Below, one piece after another: positions 34,691-58,246 of a DNA stretch of 64,000 nt. Made by a program: the position numbers and the translations under genes. The DNA is from Cyclonatronum proteinivorum (GTDB taxonomy: Bacteria > Bacteroidota > Rhodothermia > Balneolales > Cyclonatronaceae), in NCBI RefSeq assembly GCF_003353065.1, contig NZ_CP027806.1:3120501-3184500 (forward strand), given 5' to 3'. How positions within the stretch are numbered: position 1 is the first letter of the stretch; every line of letters begins with the position of its first letter. The notes beneath the pieces are model-generated. The model saw only the letters and a program-made list of their open reading frames with translations, did not search any database and had not been told where the DNA came from.

Positions 34691-35388
34691 TTATATCTCT
34701 CTTTATAAATTGGTAGCATAGCTTTTGCGAATTCATAGTCTTCGAACTCATCAATATCAATACCAGCTACCTTTGGTAGGATTGTTTTGAATGGTTTTGC
34801 TCCTAAGAAATAGCCATCTCTTATAGTTGATAACTTATCTCTCATATATAGTCCGTTAGTCACTTTAAAAATATTAGGTAATTCTTGACTAATGGTATGA
34901 TTTTTATCTGCTTGATAATTTAGAGGCTTATCATCTAACCATAAATATTCTTTGATAAGGTTTACACTAACCAAGCTATCATGTCTATCAGTATTTACAA
35001 CATGATTAAAGTAATCTTCAAAGCATTGCTGGAACATTGACTTAGACATGTAAGGAACTACAACGGTGCACCACGCAAAGTGTTTTGTACCAATATCTTT
35101 TACTATTCCGGTAATGACTTCAGAAAAGCTTGCAACATGACCAGTACATAGGTAAGGGTCTCTTTCATGATACCCTACTCCTAAATTCTTTGCAATAGCT
35201 TTTACATTTTCTGAATTAGAACTAATAAGAACCTTCAAATCTTTTCTATAATTGAATATTTCACTTACTTTCCACTCAAGCAACGATACTCCATCTTCTA
35301 TTTCAAGATATATTTTATCTTTTACTCTAGTACTTCCTTCTCTTACTGGAATTATAATAGTTAGTTCATCTTTTAAAAAAGTTTCCAT
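34687..35388 (-). CDS. CMP-sugar synthetase-like cytidylyltransferase (module A)
   Basis: This 233-residue protein is of the acylneuraminate/Kdo cytidylyltransferase type: LTIIIPVREGSTRVKDKIYL is the nucleotide-binding loop (compare ARxGSxRxxxKN in NeuA), then VLISSNSENVKAIAKNLG and the late Asp pair in IDIDEFEDYEFAKAM. ATG at 35388 overlaps the upstream aldolase stop as TGATG and is preferred over a start nine codons further up. It shares little with the module B enzyme at 55118-55831, so the two modules may activate different sugars. Confidence 0.82.
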   Translation of the reverse strand: METFLKDELTIIIPVREGSTRVKDKIYLEIEDGVSLLEWKVSEIFNYRKDLKVLISSNSENVKAIAKNLGVGYHERDPYLCTGHVASFSEVITGIVKDIGTKHFAWCTVVVPYMSKSMFQQCFEDYFNHVVNTDRHDSLVSVNLIKEYLWLDDKPLNYQADKNHTISQELPNIFKVTNGLYMRDKLSTIRDGYFLGAKPFKTILPKVAGIDIDEFEDYEFAKAMLPIYKERYK

Positions 35389-36098
35389 CAATATTCCTTT
35401 TTTATTTTCTCGCAAATACCTGCAAAAAGATTCAAATCAACCGAGTAAGCTATATATCCAAAACCTTTATTTTTGAAGACTTTTATTTTATCGAAACTAT
35501 CTACAAAGGTTCCTAAAACTTTTCCTGATACTTTTACTTTTTTAGCTAATTCTTCAATCGCTTTAACTACTTTTGGATGATCCACTTGACCTGGGTAACC
35601 TAAAGATTGTGACAAATCATAAGGCCCAATAAATAAAACATCAAACCCTTTTAGAGCAAGTATATCATCTATGCAATTCATTCCGCCTTTACCTTCTACT
35701 TGCAGTATAAGTTGCTTAGAATTAGCATTAGATAAATAGATTGATTTTTCTGTTGTTCCAAAATTAGCTGCTTTTACGTAGCAACAAACACCTCTATTTC
35801 CATTAGGAAAAAACTTGGCTGCATCAATAGCTTTCATGGCTTGCTCAACAGAACTTATGTTGGGCACTTGAACCATGTCGGCACCCGAATCAAAAGCACT
35901 ACCAATTTTGTTATGATTGTTTTCTGCAACTCGGACTACCGAAGTCATTCCTCCCATTTTGGTTGCTCTTACATGATTTTGAATGGTAGTTAAATCTAGC
36001 GTACCATGTTCTTGATCAAATATCATAAAGTCTAAGCCTGAATAACTTATCGCCTCTACTAAATTAGAATCAATTGTTTTAGAAAATATTCCTATCAT
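35388..36098 (-). CDS. HpcH/HpaI-type aldolase (module A)
   Basis: This 236-residue TIM-barrel class II aldolase has FDQEHGTLD, VVRVAENN, ADMVQVPNISS, RGVCCYVKAANFG and LQVEGKGGMNCIDDILAL with the metal-binding Glu, then VLFIGPYDLSQSLGYPGQ. These are hallmarks of the HpaI/GarL family that cleaves or forms 2-keto-3-deoxy acids from pyruvate and an aldehyde. It lacks about 20 N-terminal residues found in the paralogue at 55842. It probably acts in the same keto-acid route as the HMGL-type protein upstream. Confidence 0.85.
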   Translation of the reverse strand: MIGIFSKTIDSNLVEAISYSGLDFMIFDQEHGTLDLTTIQNHVRATKMGGMTSVVRVAENNHNKIGSAFDSGADMVQVPNISSVEQAMKAIDAAKFFPNGNRGVCCYVKAANFGTTEKSIYLSNANSKQLILQVEGKGGMNCIDDILALKGFDVLFIGPYDLSQSLGYPGQVDHPKVVKAIEELAKKVKVSGKVLGTFVDSFDKIKVFKNKGFGYIAYSVDLNLFAGICEKIKKEY

Positions 36099-36100
36099 AA

Positions 36101-37642
36101 CTAAATTTGTGAATAAATGGATTGACTTTCTAATTGTTTATAAGACGTTCTCGTCAAACTAATTAATTCAATTTCTGTATTTTTCTTAAATGCTTCAAAA
36201 AGTTGAACATTTTCATTAAACAATTCTTGTTCCTTTTCACTGATTACACCATTATATCCATCATAACCTACTATATATAAACTTTTGAACCCGAATTCTA
36301 ATGCAGTCTGAAATGCAATAGCAGTATGTGAATCCGTAAATTGATCTGTGAACCTGATTTTGCTCAGCTCATAAGCATTATCTTTCATCGAATCAGGAAT
36401 ATAAGTACCCATTTTTCTTGGATAAGGCGGCAGAATACATTTACCCTTTTTAGGTACTGAATATCCAAATACTGATTCTAAGCGATATCCTTCATTACCT
36501 ACCAAACAAAAGTATTGTTGATTAGGCACATTTTTAAAAGACATGGCATTCTTAGAACTTGCGTGAATCACTGCAATTTTCGGGTTATTTTTTAGAAACA
36601 GCTCAATTGCATCTGAATGCTCAACAGGACTTGGACCGCCACCTACAATTAAAGCTGACTTAAAAACCGGCTCTTTTTTAAAATCAAGCAATGGTAACCT
36701 GAAATTATCTTGTTGCCCTTTGCTTGTATTGTTCAATGCCCTAATAATACTGTTGAACGAGTAATATCGCTTGCTCACCCATTCCATCACGTTTTTCTGC
36801 GGCAGGGAGTTGGCACCTGAAACCATGTAAGGCAGGTTGGTTCCCCACTCATAATACTTTTGCAGATCGGTAAACACATCTACGACCCGGCTCAGCGCAT
36901 TAAAATCGAAATCGAGTTTGCCCTGTGCATTCAGTACGGTGAGCAGAAGCTCGGTCTTTAGGTTACCGGCGCCGCGGCCCATGCCGGTAATCGTCGCATC
37001 AACCATGGCACAGCCTTCCTCAATAGCCGTAAGGGTGTTAATAAGCCCAAGCTCCATGTTGTTATGTCCGTGAAATCCGAGGGGGATGTCAACCTTGCTT
37101 TTCACAAGCGCGATCGTGTCCCGAACATCCTGCGGATACACCCCGCCAAAGGAATCAACCATATAAAAAATATCGGCGGCTCCGGCTGCAAGGGGAAGAT
37201 TGTCCAGAAATTCTTTCTGCGAAGCCCAGGTTGACATATACATCACATTGAACCCGACTTCAAAACCAAGTTTCTTTACTTCTTTGGCCAGCACAACCGC
37301 CCGTTCAAAGTTTTTAGGATCAATAGCAATCCGAACCATATCCACAAGTCCGGCAATCGGCTTAAGCAGCGGTTCAGCATCTTCAGCCCTTACATCCTTC
37401 TCATTCAGGATAATAACCAGCTTTTTATTGCTCAGAGATTTGATTTGCTGCAATACAGGTACCGGGCAATAAAAATACTCGCCAAGATACCCTTTCATCG
37501 GATTTGATCGGTAACCCACTTCCAAGTACTCAACCGGCAAATGGTTAAACGCTTCGAAATAAGTTTTGACGGTTTCTTTGCTAAAGTCCCAGTTGGTGTA
37601 GTAGCCACCGTCTCGTAAGGTGCAATCAAGAATATTGAACAT
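36101..37642 (-). CDS. HMGL-type aldolase fused to GT42/DUF115-like domain (module A)
   Basis: This 513-residue protein has two parts. Residues 1-300 form a DRE-TIM metallolyase: LDCTLRDGGYYTNWDF, GFHGHNNMELGL with metal ligands, DATITGMGRGAGNLKTE, as in 4-hydroxy-2-oxovalerate aldolases. Residues about 325-513 are a second domain with ALIVGGGPSPVEH, FCLVGNEGYRLESVFG, PPYPRKMGTYIP and SLYIVGYDGYNG, a GPS plus late GYDGY pattern recalling GT42 sialyltransferases and DUF115 proteins. The first part is nearly identical in DNA to 57351-58237, while the second is diverged and AT-rich. It probably condenses pyruvate with a sugar aldehyde. Confidence 0.82.
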   Translation of the reverse strand: MFNILDCTLRDGGYYTNWDFSKETVKTYFEAFNHLPVEYLEVGYRSNPMKGYLGEYFYCPVPVLQQIKSLSNKKLVIILNEKDVRAEDAEPLLKPIAGLVDMVRIAIDPKNFERAVVLAKEVKKLGFEVGFNVMYMSTWASQKEFLDNLPLAAGAADIFYMVDSFGGVYPQDVRDTIALVKSKVDIPLGFHGHNNMELGLINTLTAIEEGCAMVDATITGMGRGAGNLKTELLLTVLNAQGKLDFDFNALSRVVDVFTDLQKYYEWGTNLPYMVSGANSLPQKNVMEWVSKRYYSFNSIIRALNNTSKGQQDNFRLPLLDFKKEPVFKSALIVGGGPSPVEHSDAIELFLKNNPKIAVIHASSKNAMSFKNVPNQQYFCLVGNEGYRLESVFGYSVPKKGKCILPPYPRKMGTYIPDSMKDNAYELSKIRFTDQFTDSHTAIAFQTALEFGFKSLYIVGYDGYNGVISEKEQELFNENVQLFEAFKKNTEIELISLTRTSYKQLESQSIYSQI

Positions 37643-37684
37643 TTATTATTATTAAAGTTTAAATTAACTTAACTCTGTTTATGA

Positions 37685-38773
37685 CTATTTTAAATTATAC
37701 AAGCTATATTGGTATTTATTCTTAAATCCTTTAATCTCGGAATTATCCGGAAATATTTGTTCAATTATATTACTTCCTGCTACAACTTGACCTATAGAAG
37801 TATCCCATGCAGAATTAGCTTCAATCAATATTGGACCACTTAAAGTAAAGGCTATATCCCACCCAATAGAATAAACATCTGAGAAACAAAGATGTGACTT
37901 TTCAACAAGTTTCTTTGCCTCAGTAAAGTATGGAACTTTGAAGTTTACAATTTCTTTTGATGTTTCTGGATGCGTTATCGCGTATCCTATATCATTAGGA
38001 TCATTATAGGCAAACTTATAAAACCCCATTTCACCTAATTCGCCACTTGCAACATTGACTGGAACAAAAATTGAGCCATTATTCAGATTATCCATAATAC
38101 CTGATTTACTTGTACCAAATCGCACAAATCCAAAATGTGTTTTAACCTTGCCGTTTACGATTGTTGTTGTAAGTTTAAGCGTATTTACTGCATGCTCATT
38201 TATATCTTGAAAAGTTTTTATTTGATGTATTTTTTCTTGAATCAGTAAAGTCTTATTTATAGATAGATCAAACATATCAATTGTTATATCATTACACATT
38301 AATTTATTGGCACCTAAATATTTTCCAGTTATAAGGCTCGAACCACCTATTCCATTGTTTTCTTTAACAAAGAGGGGTGTTCCAATTTCAGGCTCCTCTA
38401 ACCAATTAAGATGATTATTTTTAAAAAGTCCATAAGTTTTTGGTGTTGGAATATTATGTATCGCACAATATTTTGCGAATAAGTATTTGTCTCTTAAAAT
38501 TATTGTGTAATCTCTACCTGAATTAATGTTGTTATACTCGTTTCTTATTTTAACACACATTCTTGTAGGAAATACGATCGTATTGGAGCCCCCAACATCG
38601 TTCCCTCGCAAAAAGTATGTTCTGTCAACTTCCTCAAATTGCATATACCATTTAATAAAATCATGGTATATCTCCATACTACTCTTTAATTTTTTATGCT
38701 TATTAAACGAGTATTTAAATGAAGAATTTGCAATATCAAAAAAATAATCTAATTTATCTAAATACATGCTCAT
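37685..38773 (-). CDS. Sugar-transfer-associated ATP-grasp-like protein
   Basis: This 362-residue AT-rich gene product has an ATP-grasp plan: PLFVKENNGIGGSSLITGKY for the nucleotide loop, LLIQEKIHQ, NTLKLTTTIVNGKVKTHFGF and the metal-binding end IGWDIAFTLSGPILIEANSAWDTS (given in parts). It resembles the group named sugar-transfer-associated ATP-grasp and the neighbour at 39951-41042. Members are expected to join a carboxylate to an amine or similar, here perhaps decorating a sugar. Substrates are unknown. Confidence 0.72.
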   Translation of the reverse strand: MSMYLDKLDYFFDIANSSFKYSFNKHKKLKSSMEIYHDFIKWYMQFEEVDRTYFLRGNDVGGSNTIVFPTRMCVKIRNEYNNINSGRDYTIILRDKYLFAKYCAIHNIPTPKTYGLFKNNHLNWLEEPEIGTPLFVKENNGIGGSSLITGKYLGANKLMCNDITIDMFDLSINKTLLIQEKIHQIKTFQDINEHAVNTLKLTTTIVNGKVKTHFGFVRFGTSKSGIMDNLNNGSIFVPVNVASGELGEMGFYKFAYNDPNDIGYAITHPETSKEIVNFKVPYFTEAKKLVEKSHLCFSDVYSIGWDIAFTLSGPILIEANSAWDTSIGQVVAGSNIIEQIFPDNSEIKGFKNKYQYSLYNLK

Positions 38774-38776
38774 GAA

Positions 38777-39949
38777 TTATTTATCTATATATATATTATT
38801 CAAACATTCAATATTTGATTTTTCCATACTATAATATCTATTTCCTTTTTTTCTGCCAAACTGTAAAAGTTCATCAAGTTGTTTGCAATGTTCTAAATAA
38901 ATAGAGTGTGATTCACGCTCCTTAGTTAATGCGGGATTAACTTCTTTTACAGAGTTTCTTGCTTCATCATTTTTAATTTGAACTGAATATTTCCAGTTTT
39001 CATCTCTACTGTCATTTGAAGAATATCCATCCGCTCCTAATATATATATTTCGTTAGTGTACGCAGAGGCAATTGGCAACATAAATGTTCTTAATACATT
39101 TGGATATTTCTCTTTTTTCACAAATGGCGTTTTTAAAGATGGGAAATTTAATTCAGTATGAGATGTTGAAATTCCAATAATATTATTTTCAAGTTTGGGA
39201 TAATGTGACAAGACTAATGGTAGTTTATACCATGGCATCACAATATACATCGACTTATTTTTTAAATATTCTATGACTGTTTCAAAAAACTTGGCCGTAT
39301 ATATTGACGAACTAAAAAAGTAATAAACATCTAACACGCATAAAAGATCAATATTGCCAAGATATTCCAATAATTCTTTATTATATATAACACCATTGCA
39401 AATTATTTTTAATGACTTTTTTTTAAAATAATGCTTTCTATATCTATCTAATGATGGACCAGATGTAAAGCAATAGGACACATCAATATCTCTGATACTA
39501 TTCTCGAATTTTATAATATTTCGTTTCGAAATACTGTCATATTCAGAAATTCTATATTTTTGCGTCTCATAAGATACTCTGCCCCACGAACTCGCTTCCC
39601 CTTTAAAGAAAGGTTTAAATTTATCTATTGTAAGAACTGGTGTATTAGGGAAAACTGCTTCATAATATTTAACTTCATCATTAACATGACAAAGCAAATA
39701 GTCTGGAATAGTATTTACAGTTGCATCTTGTAAATGTATATGGCAGTTAGATTTTCCAATATATCTAAATTGGCCTGTAGGAGTTTCTAAATGATTAATA
39801 TCTGAATTTAATAAATTCTCAGCTACATGTATTGTTATATCAATATTATCAAAAGGTAACCACCAATTTATTCTATTAATTATATCACTTAATTTTTCCT
39901 TGGTTTTGATTTGTGGTTCAATATGAACATGGAATTTTGTTTTTAACAT
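38777..39949 (-). CDS. GT42/DUF115-like protein, possible glycosyltransferase
   Basis: This 390-residue very AT-rich product contains YCFTSGPSLDRYRKHYF in the middle, IDLLCVLDVYYFF, then EIYILGADGYSSNDSRDENW and RESHSIYLEHCKQLDELL toward the end. The GPSL loop, the later LGADGY and the His in HSIYLEH match in order the GNGPSL, SGIDFY and HSKN features of Campylobacter CstII-type sialyltransferases as I recall them. DUF115 proteins share this fold. It also parallels the second domain of the HMGL fusions. If so it would transfer the CMP-activated sugar. Confidence 0.55.
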   Translation of the reverse strand: MLKTKFHVHIEPQIKTKEKLSDIINRINWWLPFDNIDITIHVAENLLNSDINHLETPTGQFRYIGKSNCHIHLQDATVNTIPDYLLCHVNDEVKYYEAVFPNTPVLTIDKFKPFFKGEASSWGRVSYETQKYRISEYDSISKRNIIKFENSIRDIDVSYCFTSGPSLDRYRKHYFKKKSLKIICNGVIYNKELLEYLGNIDLLCVLDVYYFFSSSIYTAKFFETVIEYLKNKSMYIVMPWYKLPLVLSHYPKLENNIIGISTSHTELNFPSLKTPFVKKEKYPNVLRTFMLPIASAYTNEIYILGADGYSSNDSRDENWKYSVQIKNDEARNSVKEVNPALTKERESHSIYLEHCKQLDELLQFGRKKGNRYYSMEKSNIECLNNIYIDK

Positions 39950-51499: not shown

Positions 51500-52372
51500 T
51501 TAAATGTCATTCTTATCAGGTAATATTTCAATTAATTTATCCCGTATTTCAAAATAATCTATAGTCTTTTGAAATCTTTGTTCCACTATATTACGACCAG
51601 GTAAGTCTCTTGGTTTTGTCTGTTCATTTTGCGGTATAGGTATGCCCAACCTAAAGGAGTCAGGAATCCCAATACACACCTGCTTAGTACCATTAGCGAT
51701 AGCAGCTGCCCAAAACCAGAAGTCTGACCCCCTTCCTGGTATAATCTCATTTATCTTTCCTATATCCTTGAATTTGGAATGCAAACTATTAGGTGGGTAG
51801 TATGTCCCCCACCCACCTAAAAAATATATTTCTTCTGGAGGCGTTGATTCATCTACCTTTTTGGGTGTCCTATACATCATTTTTACTTCATTACCCTTGC
51901 GATACATAGCCTTACCAACGTGACCGACTATACAACCCTCTTTGACGTACTTATTATTTATAAGATTTTCTAAAAGATTCTTATGATAAATAAAATCATC
52001 ATCCAACGTTACCACTGCTAACTCCGCGTACTTTTCGACAACAGGGACGAGCTTCTTGACAGCATAAGGATTATTACGATTCCAGATAATTTCAACGCCT
52101 TTCTTTTCTAGTTTTTTTAGATGCGATGGGATTTCACGATTATCATAATCTTCTTCAGATAGAACCAACACATATTTAAGAGGAGGGCAAGTCTGGTTTG
52201 ATAGTGCCTGAAATACAGCAGGTAACAATGGATCACGTTTGGGATAGCTTGCTATGGATACAATGAAGTTGGCACTGGAATTTGTTGGGAATGTTTTTCT
52301 CGTAATGCTGGCGCTTATATCATAAAATTTATACACCAGATAGTTTCTTAACCTGACCAATCTTTTGACCAT
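51500..52372 (-). CDS. GT-A (family 2-like) glycosyltransferase
   Basis: This 290-residue protein has FIVSIASYPKRDPLLPAVF at about residue 35, YVLVLSEEDYDNREIP, LAVVTLDDDFIYHKNLLENL with the DxD metal site and FLGGWGTYYPPNSL. This pattern is common in capsule-type glycosyltransferases that begin with an ASYPKR strand. It ends one base into the start of the next gene. The donor is unknown. Confidence 0.82.
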   Translation of the reverse strand: MVKRLVRLRNYLVYKFYDISASITRKTFPTNSSANFIVSIASYPKRDPLLPAVFQALSNQTCPPLKYVLVLSEEDYDNREIPSHLKKLEKKGVEIIWNRNNPYAVKKLVPVVEKYAELAVVTLDDDFIYHKNLLENLINNKYVKEGCIVGHVGKAMYRKGNEVKMMYRTPKKVDESTPPEEIYFLGGWGTYYPPNSLHSKFKDIGKINEIIPGRGSDFWFWAAAIANGTKQVCIGIPDSFRLGIPIPQNEQTKPRDLPGRNIVEQRFQKTIDYFEIRDKLIEILPDKNDI

Positions 52373-53433
52373 CAGTTATCAACTCCTTCGGTAATTAGAG
52401 GAATATGCTTCACGGTGTCCCAAAAGAAATCCATTCCTTCAAATGCGCTGTGTTTTCTGTTCCTAAGGTTATAAAAATAAGAATACGCATCATGTCCCAT
52501 AATTTCGGCATAGAACAGCAAGGATGACCTTGCGCCAATGAGCACAACGTTTTCTGAATTCGCCATGATCAGTTCCAAAGGCATTTCGCTTTCATGGACG
52601 GTGTAATTTACCTTTAGATTTTCCAGCAGCGGAATTACTTCAGACGTTTCTTTTCCCATACCCGGTCTGAGTTTTACCCAGTGCTGATGTGTTTTACCAT
52701 ACTTCTCATTAATAAACCTGACACTGTTCAGAATGGCTGTTTCTGTATCTTTTTGGTCTGTAACATATTGCTTGTTATATGAATCCTCTACCCAAATAAT
52801 AGCATTGCTTAAGCTCAAATTCCCGTTTTTTTGGTCGCCGTTCCAAAATGAAACAACACGCTTATTTTCTTCCGAAATGCCCGGATAACAATGCTTTGAA
52901 AAACCAAAAAATGTCACATTCTTCAGATAACGGTACCCATTGGGCCAAAACGGAAGATTTAGCAGTCTGTGATTATAGGACCGTAACGCAAAGTATAACT
53001 GAGTAAGGTATTCGGAATATGAACGCAGTCTGAATTCCGTATTTTTGGCAACATGCGTAATTTCGGTAAGGGTATCTGCTTTAAGGTAGGAAGCTGTTCC
53101 TTCTTCGATGAAGTTGAAAGTAACGCAGTGCGGATTTGTGACCAATATTCGCTGCCAGTAATGCATGAGATCAATATATGCGGTGAATTCTTCCCCCTTT
53201 GTCAGCTCACCAATGTATCGGTCATAGGCTTTGGGAACATTAAAAGCCCGGAGTTTAGCTATGATGCCCGATTGAACCTCATGAAATGCTTTCACAACGG
53301 TGCCATATTCAAAGGGTGCTTTATACCCTGCAGAAATGATTATTACATCTTGCTGTTTTAGTTCAAGCGCTTTACACACACTTACGGCGCAAAGAAAAGT
53401 AATCGGAGAATGTATGGTGAAGATATGCTTCAT
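52372..53433 (-). CDS. Polysialyltransferase-like (POLYST/GT52-like) protein
   Basis: This 353-residue protein starts HIFTIHSPITFLCAVSVCKA, has VTFNFIEEGTASYL near residue 105, VKLRPGMGKE near 250 and NSENVVLIGARSSLLFYAEI near 300. The order EEG, K-x-RPG (in place of the KPHP motif) and SS matches bacterial polysialyl- and GT52/GT38-type transferases, which use CMP-activated sugars. It would suit a CMP-keto-sugar made by the nearby modules. The motifs are approximate. Confidence 0.6.
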   Translation of the reverse strand: MKHIFTIHSPITFLCAVSVCKALELKQQDVIIISAGYKAPFEYGTVVKAFHEVQSGIIAKLRAFNVPKAYDRYIGELTKGEEFTAYIDLMHYWQRILVTNPHCVTFNFIEEGTASYLKADTLTEITHVAKNTEFRLRSYSEYLTQLYFALRSYNHRLLNLPFWPNGYRYLKNVTFFGFSKHCYPGISEENKRVVSFWNGDQKNGNLSLSNAIIWVEDSYNKQYVTDQKDTETAILNSVRFINEKYGKTHQHWVKLRPGMGKETSEVIPLLENLKVNYTVHESEMPLELIMANSENVVLIGARSSLLFYAEIMGHDAYSYFYNLRNRKHSAFEGMDFFWDTVKHIPLITEGVDN

Positions 53434-53465: not shown

Positions 53466-54104
53466 TTAATAATTCAGGTCTAAAATGAATGTTGTTTTTG
53501 AATCGAGTTCTTCTGTTCCATTGTACGACATGAAATGCATTCCGTTTACTGAAGCTGCCTCATGATCATTGATAGAGTCCCCGACGAGTATACACTTTCC
53601 GGATTCCAGCTTTTCTTCTTTTAAGATCGTACCTACCCACTCTTTTTTAGGCGTTGGGGATCCATGGATTCGCTTAAAATAGGAGGCTATACCATGCGCC
53701 TTACACAAGAACCGTAGCTCTTCCTGATCAGAACCCGATACAATATACATGTGAACGCGCGTATGGTTTCGCCGGACGTAATTTATGGTTTCCTGTATTT
53801 GTAGCCCAGAGTCTGTTAACAATTCCCGCATGATTACAGAAAATCGCTCCGCCCATTGTTGTATCTCAGATTCAGATATGCTTACACCCCGGATTTTTTC
53901 AAAAAAATACCTGAACTTAACGTAGCGTGACAAACCCCCGTTTTGCTGATGAAAAGCAAGAAGCTGATCTACTTCTGCTGCAGGGTACTCTTTTAAAACC
54001 TCAGCAAAGCCTTTGTCCCGTATTTCATTCGAGTTCAGAAGAACTCCGTCGAAATCCCAAAAAATGGCTTGAAGGTCTGAAAGTTCTGTGTGTGTTGGGC
54101 TCAT
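53466..54104 (-). CDS. HAD-superfamily phosphatase (module B)
   Basis: This 212-residue paralogue of 34082-34690 has IFWDFDGVLLNSNEIRDKG, YIVSGSDQEELRFLCKAHG and CILVGDSINDHEAA for the HAD motifs. Long stretches are identical between the two, while the C-terminal 30 residues differ. The N-terminus is some 10 residues longer. It would remove the phosphate from the keto-sugar acid of module B. Confidence 0.9.
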   Translation of the reverse strand: MSPTHTELSDLQAIFWDFDGVLLNSNEIRDKGFAEVLKEYPAAEVDQLLAFHQQNGGLSRYVKFRYFFEKIRGVSISESEIQQWAERFSVIMRELLTDSGLQIQETINYVRRNHTRVHMYIVSGSDQEELRFLCKAHGIASYFKRIHGSPTPKKEWVGTILKEEKLESGKCILVGDSINDHEAASVNGMHFMSYNGTEELDSKTTFILDLNY

Positions 54105-55117: not shown

Positions 55118-55831
55118 TCAGGCAAGTCCTTCTTTTTTTAGCCATTCTTCACTTTTTTGGATGTCTTCTAAATCATGTACATCAAAGGCTTCCTCAATAA
55201 TGTACGGCTTAACCCGCTCACCCATGAAGGTCCAGGGTTGTTGTCCTTTTCCGGATTCAAAATCGGTGACCCGCAGCACCCAGAAATTATGACTGAAAAA
55301 GTAACAAGGAACCAGATCCTGACGGTTCGTTGAAATATGCTTATCTCCAAAGTCAAAAAAAGGTTCACATAAACCTTCAGCCGTCAGTTTTTTGGCCCGA
55401 TAGGGATGATGATCCATTTCCCGGTAAACCGGTGCCGCAGCCGAAAGCGTCTCATCTTCCAGTAAGTAACCGATACAGGCGTCAATCCATTCTGTTTTAA
55501 TGGTCACGCTGTTGGCCAGCATTACAACAAGCAGGTCAGGCTTTTCCTGCTTCTCTTGCACCATATACGCAAGCGCATGCTTTATGGCGTCAATGTGCTG
55601 CGAGTCAGGGCGTGCGAGTTCTTCTGGACGCACTATTTTTTCATACCCAACTTCTTCCGCTGCAGAAAGGATTTTAGGGCAGTCGCTGCTTACATAAAAG
55701 TGATTTACGAACCCGCTTTTTTGGGCAGCCAAAGCCGGATAGTGCAGTAAAGGTTTCCCCAGAACAGGCAGAATATTCTTGTCTTGTAAGGTATTGTTGC
55801 CTCTTCCGGTTAATAATGCTGTTATATTCAT
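55118..55831 (-). CDS. CMP-sugar synthetase-like cytidylyltransferase (module B)
   Basis: This 237-residue protein has ITALLTGRGNNTLQDKNILP as nucleotide loop (in the place of the NeuA ARxGSKxxxxKN loop), LLHYPALAAQKSG, FYVSSDCPKILSAAEEVG and the late AFDVHDLEDIQKSEEWL. It belongs to the acylneuraminate cytidylyltransferase superfamily but to a different branch from the module A enzyme. It should activate a keto-sugar acid as its CMP derivative. Confidence 0.82.
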   Translation of the reverse strand: MNITALLTGRGNNTLQDKNILPVLGKPLLHYPALAAQKSGFVNHFYVSSDCPKILSAAEEVGYEKIVRPEELARPDSQHIDAIKHALAYMVQEKQEKPDLLVVMLANSVTIKTEWIDACIGYLLEDETLSAAAPVYREMDHHPYRAKKLTAEGLCEPFFDFGDKHISTNRQDLVPCYFFSHNFWVLRVTDFESGKGQQPWTFMGERVKPYIIEEAFDVHDLEDIQKSEEWLKKEGLA

Positions 55832-55841
55832 GATGCGCTGT

Positions 55842-56618
55842 TTACCTGGGAAATAGTTGATCTTTTAAGTTTCGTACCGTGTCAGCAAGTAAATGAATAT
55901 CTACCGAATACGAAATATATTTTACACCAAGCGATTTCCAGTACGAAGCCTGATCCGGCTGATCACAAAATATGCCGGTAAACACGCCTTTCGCAGAAGC
56001 TTCTGCTACAATTTTCCGCATGGCCTGCATCACCTTTTCATGCTGTATTTGACCGGGCACCCCTAACGACTGAGACAAATCATAAGGCCCTATAAATAAA
56101 ACATCAATGCCTTTAACTTCCAGTATAGAAGCAAGATTTCGGATCGCTTCGGCGCCTTCAAGCTGCAGAATAACCAGCGAATGGTTGGCTTCCTTAAAAT
56201 AGCTTGCTTTATCTTTTTCGGCATAATCAGCGGCACGTACAAACCGACAGACTCCCCGCTCACCGTCCGGATAGAATTTCATGCGGCGAATGACTTTCTT
56301 AGCCTGTTCTGCAGAGGTTACGGATGAGACCTGAACCCCATGCGCACCTAAATCAAGTGCTTTTTCAAGCAACGGACTCTCCCATGAGGGCACACGCACA
56401 ATCCCCGCCATTTCGGATGCATTTAGGGCCATCATGTGACCTTTTAAGGTTTCGGTCGTCACGGGTCCATGTTCCATATCAACGATGATATAATCGCTGC
56501 CTGAAAGCCCGATTGCTTCAATCACGGAGCTGTCCGTTGTTTTGCTGAAACAGCCAAATACACCGTCTGCCTGAAGCTTAGCTTTGAATTCTGCAATTTT
56601 ACTGCTGTAGGAGTGCAC
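55842..56618 (-). CDS. HpcH/HpaI-type aldolase (module B)
   Basis: This 258-residue paralogue of 35388-36098 has VDMEHGPVTTETLKG, GIVRVPSWES with the catalytic Arg, HGVQVSSVTSAEQAKKV, RGVCRFVRAADYAEKD, LQLEGAEAIRNL (metal-binding Glu) and VLFIGPYDLSQSLGVPGQ. It starts at GTG 56618. About 85 bp separates it from the HMGL-type gene upstream. It is predicted to add or remove pyruvate on a sugar-derived aldehyde. Confidence 0.86.
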   Translation of the reverse strand: MHSYSSKIAEFKAKLQADGVFGCFSKTTDSSVIEAIGLSGSDYIIVDMEHGPVTTETLKGHMMALNASEMAGIVRVPSWESPLLEKALDLGAHGVQVSSVTSAEQAKKVIRRMKFYPDGERGVCRFVRAADYAEKDKASYFKEANHSLVILQLEGAEAIRNLASILEVKGIDVLFIGPYDLSQSLGVPGQIQHEKVMQAMRKIVAEASAKGVFTGIFCDQPDQASYWKSLGVKYISYSVDIHLLADTVRNLKDQLFPR

Positions 56619-56704: not shown

Positions 56705-58246
56705 TCAGGAAATCCGGGCAAAAACGGAATCCGGCACAAGGTGCGTATAGGTAGTTGCCGTAAGGCTAATCAACTCAAGACCGCTTGATTTCGCTTTTCC
56801 AAACAGGAACTCGTTTTCAGCATATAGCTCCTGCTCTTTTGTTCCCATAGCCGTATTGGAATAACCGTCATAACCAACAAGATACACCCTTGTGATGCCA
56901 AAAGCACGCGCTGTTTCAATCGCAAGGCTTGTATGCGTGTCCTTGAGTTTATCCGTAAAGGTCACTTCCTTAAGCTCAAAAGCACGGTCTTTGAGTTTGC
57001 TTGGAATATAAGTTCCCATTTTGCGGGGAAAGGGTGGTAAAATGCACTGACCTTTTGCTTTGGAAGCATCGCCAAATACAGATTCAAGCCGGTAGCCTTC
57101 ATTCCCTACAAGGCAGAAATACTGATCGTTTGGAATATCAGTAAAACACATAGCGTTGCGGGAACTTGCATGAATCACCACCATATCCGGATGCTTCATC
57201 AGAAATGCATCGATAGCTTCGGTGTGTTCAACAGCACTTGGCCCGCCACCTACAATCAGAGCCGCACTGTATTTTTTTACAGCGCTGAATTCCATAACCG
57301 GCAGCCGTTCGTTATCGTCCACCCCTTTGGACTCATTATCAAGCGCTCTGATAATACTGTTGAACGAGTAATATCGCTTGCTCACCCATTCCATCACATT
57401 TTTTTGCGGCAGGGAGTTGGCGCCTGAAACCATATAAGGCAGGTTGGTTCCCCATTCATAGTGCTTTTGCAGATCGGTAAACACATCTACAACCCGGCTC
57501 AAAGCATTAAAGTCGAAATCAAGTTTGCCCTGTGCATTCAGTACGGTGAGCAAAAGCTCGGTTTTCAAATTGCCTGCGCCCCGGCCCATGCCCGTAATCG
57601 TCGCATCAACCATGGCACAGCCTTCCTCAATGGCTACAAGCGTATTGATAAGACCAAGCTCCATGTTATTGTGCCCGTGAAAGCCAAGTGGGATATCAAC
57701 CTTGCTTCTTACCAGTGCGATCGTGTCCCGAACATCCTGCGGATACACCCCGCCAAAGGAATCAACCATATAAAAGATATCGGCGGCTCCGGCAGCAAGG
57801 GGAAGTTTGTCCAAAAACGCTTTCTGCGAGGCCCAGGTTGACATGTACATGACGTTGAATCCTACTTCAAAGCCAAGTTTTTTTACTTCTTTGGCAAGCC
57901 CAACGGCGCGCTCAAGGCTTTTAGGATCAATGGCAATCCGAACCATATCCACAAGTCCGGCAATCGGCTTAAGCAGCGGTTCCGCATCTTCAGCCCTGAC
58001 ATCCTTCTCATTCAGGATGATGACCAGCTTTTTATTGCTGAGGGATTTAATTTGCTGCAGTACAGGTACCGGACAGTAGAAATACTCCCCAAGATAGCCT
58101 TTCATGGGATTGGAGCGGTAGCCAACTTCCAGGTACTCAACCGGAAGATGGTTAAAAGCTTCGAAATAGGTTTTGACGGTTTCTTTGCTAAAGTCCCAGT
58201 TGGTATAATAGCCACCGTCGCGGAGGGTGCAATCTAAAAGTTTCAT
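56705..58246 (-). CDS. HMGL-type aldolase fused to GT42/DUF115-like domain (module B)
   Basis: This 513-residue paralogue of 36101-37642 has a metallolyase part (LDCTLRDGGYYTNWDF, GFHGHNNMELGL, DATITGMGRGAGNLKTE) that differs from the module A protein at only about eight positions after the first few residues. Beyond residue 300 the two diverge to roughly half identity while keeping LIVGGGPSAVEH, FCLVGNEGYRLESVFG, PPFPRKMGTYIP and YLVGYDGY. The second domain is probably a CMP-sugar- or substrate-binding unit. It is the first gene of module B, 30 bp after the ParB-like gene. Confidence 0.83.
   Translation of the reverse strand: MKLLDCTLRDGGYYTNWDFSKETVKTYFEAFNHLPVEYLEVGYRSNPMKGYLGEYFYCPVPVLQQIKSLSNKKLVIILNEKDVRAEDAEPLLKPIAGLVDMVRIAIDPKSLERAVGLAKEVKKLGFEVGFNVMYMSTWASQKAFLDKLPLAAGAADIFYMVDSFGGVYPQDVRDTIALVRSKVDIPLGFHGHNNMELGLINTLVAIEEGCAMVDATITGMGRGAGNLKTELLLTVLNAQGKLDFDFNALSRVVDVFTDLQKHYEWGTNLPYMVSGANSLPQKNVMEWVSKRYYSFNSIIRALDNESKGVDDNERLPVMEFSAVKKYSAALIVGGGPSAVEHTEAIDAFLMKHPDMVVIHASSRNAMCFTDIPNDQYFCLVGNEGYRLESVFGDASKAKGQCILPPFPRKMGTYIPSKLKDRAFELKEVTFTDKLKDTHTSLAIETARAFGITRVYLVGYDGYSNTAMGTKEQELYAENEFLFGKAKSSGLELISLTATTYTHLVPDSVFARIS

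Follow-up and report, generated by a model that had tools for sequence, protein, structure and literature searches.

The central domain of Maf flagellin glycosyltransferases (Maf_flag10, PF01973) is structurally CstII-like, and Maf enzymes accept the cytidine monophosphate (CMP) donors CMP-N-acetylneuraminic acid (CMP-Neu5Ac) and CMP-3-deoxy-D-manno-octulosonic acid (CMP-Kdo) (PMC11339370). Within a 64,000-nucleotide stretch of the Cyclonatronum proteinivorum genome (NZ_CP027806.1, positions 3,120,501 to 3,184,500; called the window below), two proteins of 513 residues, P0001 and P0002, carry a domain of this kind behind a pyruvate aldolase. A preliminary description of the DNA had assigned this domain to the GT42/DUF115 fold, had likened it to a stand-alone neighbor, P0003, and had suggested that the fusion couples making a sugar to using it, either as a glycosyltransferase or as a substrate-handling domain. 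Our analysis supports the fold. Tentatively, we regard the fusion as the first enzyme of a CMP-ulosonic-acid cassette, whose C-terminal domain would bind a CMP-sugar or keto acid as a sensor or handling domain.

Residues ~308–513 form a separate domain in both fusions. An AlphaFold2 (AF2) model of it, based on an alignment of 82 homologous C-terminal domains, reached a mean predicted local distance difference test score (pLDDT) of 93.7. The sole Foldseek match below 0.001 was the Maf flagellin glycosyltransferase 5mu5 (E 1.1e-5), which was also the top PDB match in VIA-align (Z 13.9, root-mean-square deviation (rmsd) 3.8, 193 residues aligned). Further matches were obtained with SteA (Z 11.6), HPPK/MptE of M. 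jannaschii (8sd5; Z 11.5, rmsd 3.5, 167 aligned), CstII (1ro7; Z 10.2, rmsd 3.9, 168 aligned), Cst-I (2p56; Z 10.2, rmsd 4.1, 175 aligned) and thiamine pyrophosphokinase (Z 10.1). The matches of the model to 5mu5, MptE/HPPK and CstII/Cst-I support a Maf/DUF115/GT42 fold for the fused domain, so that the structure prediction and fold comparison proposed in the preliminary description bear out its assignment.

On the sequence level, PF01973 (MptE-like/Maf_flag10) gave sub-threshold matches at E<1 in 64 of the 82 C-terminal domains, the best with 6.2e-7; that of P0001 scored 20.3 bits, under the gathering threshold of 34.6. Comparison of a DUF115 profile with the C-terminal domain by hhalign resulted in a probability of 95% and an E value, for that single comparison, of 2.5e-8. 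A profile of stand-alone DUF115/GT-type proteins, built iteratively and also drawing in GT29-like proteins, recovered 44 of 84 fusions (best E 2.3e-8). A PDB sequence search with the C-terminal domain profile gave no significant match, so that PDB relatives emerged only on structure comparison, and PF06002 (GT42) matched neither P0001–P0003 nor anything else in the genome. Pyr_redox matches of 10–13 C-terminal domains were set aside as probably due to the GGG loop only.

The GGGPS loop and later YxVGYDGY block reported earlier for both fusions lie where they had been placed, with GGGPS at residue 334 and VGYDGY at 458 in P0001, and at 333 and 457, respectively, in P0002. Conservation in 84 full-length homologues, the sub-threshold PF01973 matches and the matches to the profile of stand-alone relatives together put these motifs far beyond chance. 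G335, G336, G459, D461, G462 and Y463 are each at least 98% conserved. Further conserved residues are L380, G382, E384, P405, P408, R409, G412, T413, P416, E477, N478, Y501 and S508, and the conserved positions lie mostly at strand ends, the ligand-binding location of this fold. The N-terminal ~300 residues constitute an HMGL-type (DRE-TIM) aldolase (PF00682, E 1.4e-25, 90.7 bits versus a cut-off of 29), in which RDGG and HGHN are invariant in the full-length homologue alignment. In the PDB, this domain matches 3dxi (421 bits), deposited as a putative aldolase. With 101.4 bits, the fusion stays below the cut-off of 286 of the DmpG equivalog TIGR03217, though it belongs to that neighborhood.

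Full-length fusions occur at 84 sites, mostly in Bacteroidota, and form an old family. A contig scan revealed 80 loci, all full-length and 50–75% identical, nearly all from Bacteroidota with one from an Akkermansiaceae metagenome-assembled genome (MAG); these are the best 80 of 162 and hence favor full-length copies, and they include a few duplicate records. Across 394 genomes of the phylum, only fused forms of the C-terminal domain were found, nine copies from eight genomes and the distant fusion P0004. A same-genus genome (G001) and a Balneolales MAG carry identical copies (L003 and L032). A CMP-sugar cytidylyltransferase is encoded no more than 5 kb downstream of the fusion in 80 of the 84 loci, adjacent to it in 65, and a HAD phosphatase follows downstream in 68; several loci lacking one of the two are sequences that end early. 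The same trio is present on a Leisingera plasmid (Alphaproteobacteria), where the fusion is only 27% identical to P0001 and the cytidylyltransferase passes the Kdo-cytidylyltransferase model. A search for a Rosetta-stone case, with a lone aldolase and a separate C-terminal domain in one cassette, found none; stand-alone aldolases of Paraburkholderia, Mesorhizobium, Priestia and a further genome (G034) were rejected as such cases, their contexts differing from the cassette. P0004 (L123, 989–2590), a distant aldolase fused to the same type of C-terminal domain, adjoins a thiamine pyrophosphate (TPP)-dependent enzyme and a NagD-like HAD protein, a context indicating that the architecture extends beyond the CMP cassette.

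At 40% identity, seven groups of cytidylyltransferases can be distinguished, and each occurs either always with or always without an HpcH-type aldolase (79/79 loci); this association with the HpcH-positive loci was reached in 0 of 9,999 permutations. Judging from this split and from loci with a KdgK-like kinase instead of the HAD phosphatase, a single fusion family seems to supply the precursors of several distinct activated keto acids. In both cassettes of the window the HpcH-type enzyme, a second and unrelated class II pyruvate aldolase, directly follows the fusion. The KdgK-like PfkB kinase replaces HAD in five loci (L099, L090, L094, L101, L105), mostly of gut Bacteroidales.

P0001 and P0002, 80% identical overall, are mosaics. 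Their aldolase domains share 97% identity and their C-terminal domains 56%, the change being sharp and located near codon 303, where the two domains meet; DNA identity per 60 bases is 82–97% up to about codon 302 and 50–67% thereafter. The nearest C-terminal domain is that of L033 (65%) for P0001 and that of L032 (81%) for P0002. For HpcH and cytidylyltransferase of the P0001 cassette, too, L033 gives the best match, and the HAD phosphatase of this cassette matches that of the P0002 cassette (70%). A break through recombination or gene conversion between the two domains would explain this pattern, which is also suggestive of domain exchange. Over all loci, C-terminal domain similarity tracks cytidylyltransferase similarity after removal of the aldolase signal (partial r 0.16, 0/999 permutations), and the reverse test, aldolase domain versus cytidylyltransferase controlled for the C-terminal domain, shows no link (partial r −0.01).

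In the pathway we propose, the fusion would start a CMP-ulosonic-acid (Kdo- or sialic-acid-like) cassette in surface-polysaccharide gene clusters. Its metal-dependent aldolase domain would form a 3-deoxy-2-keto acid from pyruvate and an aldehyde, the latter probably a short one or a phosphorylated sugar; the HAD enzyme would strip the phosphate and the cytidylyltransferase would form the CMP-keto sugar. A separate sialyltransferase-type enzyme, depending on the locus GT29-like, DUF115/GT42-like or polysialyltransferase-like, would then attach the sugar. The C-terminal domain, a CMP-ulosonate transferase fold without the His segment, may bind CMP-sugar or keto acid and serve in end-product sensing or handling. 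DRE-TIM synthases such as isopropylmalate synthase commonly carry C-terminal regulatory domains. This precedent and the missing transfer segment favor a keto-acid- or CMP-sugar-binding domain that regulates or hands on.

The main rival, that the C-terminal domain is an active CMP-ulosonate transferase and that synthesis and use of the sugar are united in a single polypeptide, seems unlikely to us, even though its top structural match, 5mu5, is a putative CMP-nonulosonate transferase. A His-containing HF[H/D] segment after the GxD strand, present in many stand-alone DUF115-type relatives, occurs in 0/84 fusions. The distance from the GxD strand to the C-terminus is 54–67 residues in the fusions versus a median of 96 in stand-alone relatives, a regex-based comparison that, like the segment count, is rough for some stand-alone proteins with a misplaced anchor. 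In GT42 enzymes, the catalytic His is located in this region, a point not found in the paper checked. About 35 loci carry separate transferase-type genes: a GT29-like gene (PF00777, 44.5 bits versus a cut-off of 23) in 14 loci, in most directly after HAD; a polysialyltransferase-like gene (PF07388) slightly further downstream in 10 loci and also in cassette 2 of the window; and stand-alone DUF115-type genes in other cassettes. With these at hand the fused domain need not be a transferase, though two transfers per pathway are possible. Further, with activation carried out by a separate protein, the fused steps would not be consecutive. In view of the missing HF[H/D] segment and the separate genes in many cassettes, binding of the CMP-sugar in a sensing or handling role seems a likelier function of the fused domain than transfer of this sugar. 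Of the coupling between making and using the sugar suggested earlier, the substrate- or product-handling part thus fits better and the transfer part becomes less likely.

Several points nevertheless weigh against binding without transfer, the first two of which also favor an active transferase. The pocket residues are conserved, and the invariant polar ones at strand ends (E384, R409, T413, D461, E477, N478, Y501) are as expected of a catalytic site. Most cassettes show no other recognized sialyltransferase-type gene. A catalytic role of the His segment would be carried over from GT42 enzymes. The partial correlation with the cytidylyltransferase is small, and as the coding end of the C-terminal domain lies close to the cytidylyltransferase gene, linked recombination could be its cause.

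It is improbable, in our estimate, that the C-terminal domain catalyzes an earlier step, as a kinase- or pyrophosphokinase-like enzyme or by delivering the aldehyde to the aldolase, in the manner of its MptE and thiamine-pyrophosphokinase fold relatives. Their structural matches, the obligate fusion to the aldolase and the nearby HAD phosphatase, which implies a phosphorylated intermediate, or the kinase in its place, would fit. However, no pterin or thiamine context is seen, the best match is Maf and not MptE, and the middle-strand Asp of DUF115 has no conserved counterpart, the family showing GNE there. A mere structural or oligomerization module left from an old fusion is similarly doubtful: conservation is lower in the C-terminal domain than in the aldolase part (mean identity to P0001 48% vs 66%), and distant homologues no longer show the middle motifs of the C-terminal domain, but its conserved residues cluster at the strand ends forming the ligand pocket, and it was never lost in 84 copies, though sampling favored full-length ones.

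The sensor or handling reading can be extended to a possible but rather unlikely scenario. Here, a sialyltransferase-fold domain that lost its transfer segment would have taken on a new role within its own pathway, sensing or channelling the CMP-sugar while attached to the first enzyme. It would form the unchanging component of a mix-and-match system whose single fusion family caters for several different CMP-ulosonic acids.

In the stand-alone P0003, TSGPSL and ILGADGY were found as described earlier, at residues 162 and 303 and in the same order as in the fusions. The evidence is weaker here than for the fusions. A two-motif pattern was matched by 1 of 200,000 shuffles of P0003. A pattern of three motifs, which followed stand-alone DUF115/GT42-like proteins but was composed after P0003 had been seen, matched P0003, 0/200,000 shuffles and 2 of 1,093 background proteins, both of which look GT42-like. 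As in stand-alone enzymes, a His-containing segment (ESHSIYLEH at 346) lies between GADGY and the last helix region. P0003 aligned with the C-terminal domain profile at an hhalign probability of 8% and also with DUF115 profiles, in neither case above noise level; it has no Pfam match above threshold, with PF01973 and PF06002 giving none. No true homologue was found in phages, viral contigs, plasmids and more than 500 whole genomes; two weak matches (L113, L114) were rejected owing to internal stop codons in the match and the lack of a matching open frame. A single-sequence AF2 model had a pLDDT of 35, too low for use. L033, whose HpcH (87%) and cytidylyltransferase (85%) make it the cassette nearest to cassette 1, encodes a GT42-like protein directly upstream of its fusion, which makes P0003, by position and motifs only, a plausible separate transferase of cassette 1.

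Positions of the two cassettes and neighboring genes are collected in Table 1. P0003 is flanked on both sides by PF14397 ATP-grasp genes; elsewhere PF14397 is found near the fusion in 1 of 82 loci. The GT29-like genes (L056:10858–11595 and 13 other loci) are bacterial genes resembling eukaryotic-type sialyltransferases. Proteins of 261–268 residues encoded directly upstream of the fusion (L033:7213–7998, L102:7192–7998, L111:7213–7998) contain the motifs GxGPS, TTNSSY and GIDAG and, with no significant Pfam match in the two scanned, look like an undescribed GT42-like family.

Table 1. Features of cassettes 1 and 2 in the window (positions counted from its first nucleotide).
Feature	Position	Strand	Basis
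Fusion protein P0001, 513 residues, HMGL/DmpG-like pyruvate aldolase and GT42/DUF115-fold domain	36101..37642	-	Pfam, PDB search, AF2, structure comparison
P0001 N-terminal aldolase domain, residues 1-302; metal/active-site motifs RDGG (10-13), HGHN (191-194)	36737..37642	-	PF00682 1.4e-25; 3dxi 421 bits; conservation
P0001 C-terminal domain, residues 308-513, Maf/DUF115/GT42 fold	36104..36721	-	AF2 pLDDT 93.7; 5mu5 Z 13.9; CstII Z 10.2
Cassette 1 HpcH/HpaI-type class II pyruvate aldolase, 236 residues	35388..36098	-	PF03328 3e-27; HpaI/GarL models
Cassette 1 CMP-sugar cytidylyltransferase, PseF/KdsB-like, 242 residues	34687..35415	-	PF02348 3.8e-7 (above its cut-off); PseF 3.6e-11
Cassette 1 HAD phosphatase, beta-PGM type, 202 residues	34082..34690	-	PF13419 4e-20; follows fusion in 68 loci
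P0003, 390-residue orphan with GT42/DUF115-like motifs, candidate separate transferase of cassette 1	38777..39949	-	Motifs only
ATP-grasp protein, sugar-transfer-associated type PF14397	37685..38773	-	6e-35
Second ATP-grasp protein PF14397	39951..41042	-	2.4e-33
Fusion protein P0002, 513 residues, P0001 paralogue, cassette 2	56705..58246	-	Sequence comparison
Cassette 2 HpcH/HpaI-type aldolase	55842..56618	-	Homologue of 35388-36098
Cassette 2 CMP-sugar cytidylyltransferase	55118..55831	-	PF02348 8.6e-11; PseF 2.4e-18
Cassette 2 HAD phosphatase	53466..54104	-	PF13419 1.2e-16
Cassette 2 polysialyltransferase-like protein, candidate separate transferase	52372..53433	-	PF07388 1.3e-7 (above its cut-off)

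The fusion is undescribed in the literature searched, subscription papers being mostly outside the reach of that search. If our reading is true, Bacteroidota would possess an aldolase-based route to CMP-activated ulosonic acids beside the phosphoenolpyruvate (PEP)-dependent Kdo, sialic, legionaminic and pseudaminic acid routes. The gene signature of fusion, cytidylyltransferase and HAD could then be used for locating undescribed acidic surface sugars, also in gut species, and a glycosyltransferase fold may have been repurposed inside its own pathway.

Among known systems, the Maf proteins share the fold of the C-terminal domain (5mu5) and the CMP-ulosonate context. In contrast to Maf, the fused domain sits on an aldolase, remains sub-threshold in Pfam, lacks the Maf N- and C-terminal domains and has a short tail without the HF[H/D] segment, and its locus is of the polysaccharide and not the flagellar type. 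With the GT42 enzymes CstII and Cst-I (PF06002) the core fold is common (Z ~10), as is a GxGPS-type loop followed by a GxD motif in the same order; the fusion differs by the lack of a PF06002 match and of the His-bearing segment and by its connection to the aldolase. A further known relative is BVU_2661 of Phocaeicola vulgatus, a member of the same two-domain family (L099, the gene of P. vulgatus ATCC 8482, 51% identical). 3dxi, which we take to be its N-terminal part, comprises the aldolase domain only (320 residues). No paper on the C-terminal domain of BVU_2661 was found in the literature searched; its operon contains the KdgK-like kinase instead of HAD. The DmpG 4-hydroxy-2-oxovalerate aldolases (TIGR03217) have the RDG and HxH metal motifs in common with the fusion, but another C-terminal domain, and RDGSH where the fusion has RDGGY. 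Finally, the Kdo pathway KdsA-KdsC-KdsB follows the same logic of C−C bond formation, phosphatase and CMP activation, and several fusion cassettes contain a KdsB-like cytidylyltransferase, whereas the fusion is a pyruvate aldolase of another superfamily than the PEP-dependent synthase and the HAD subtype differs.

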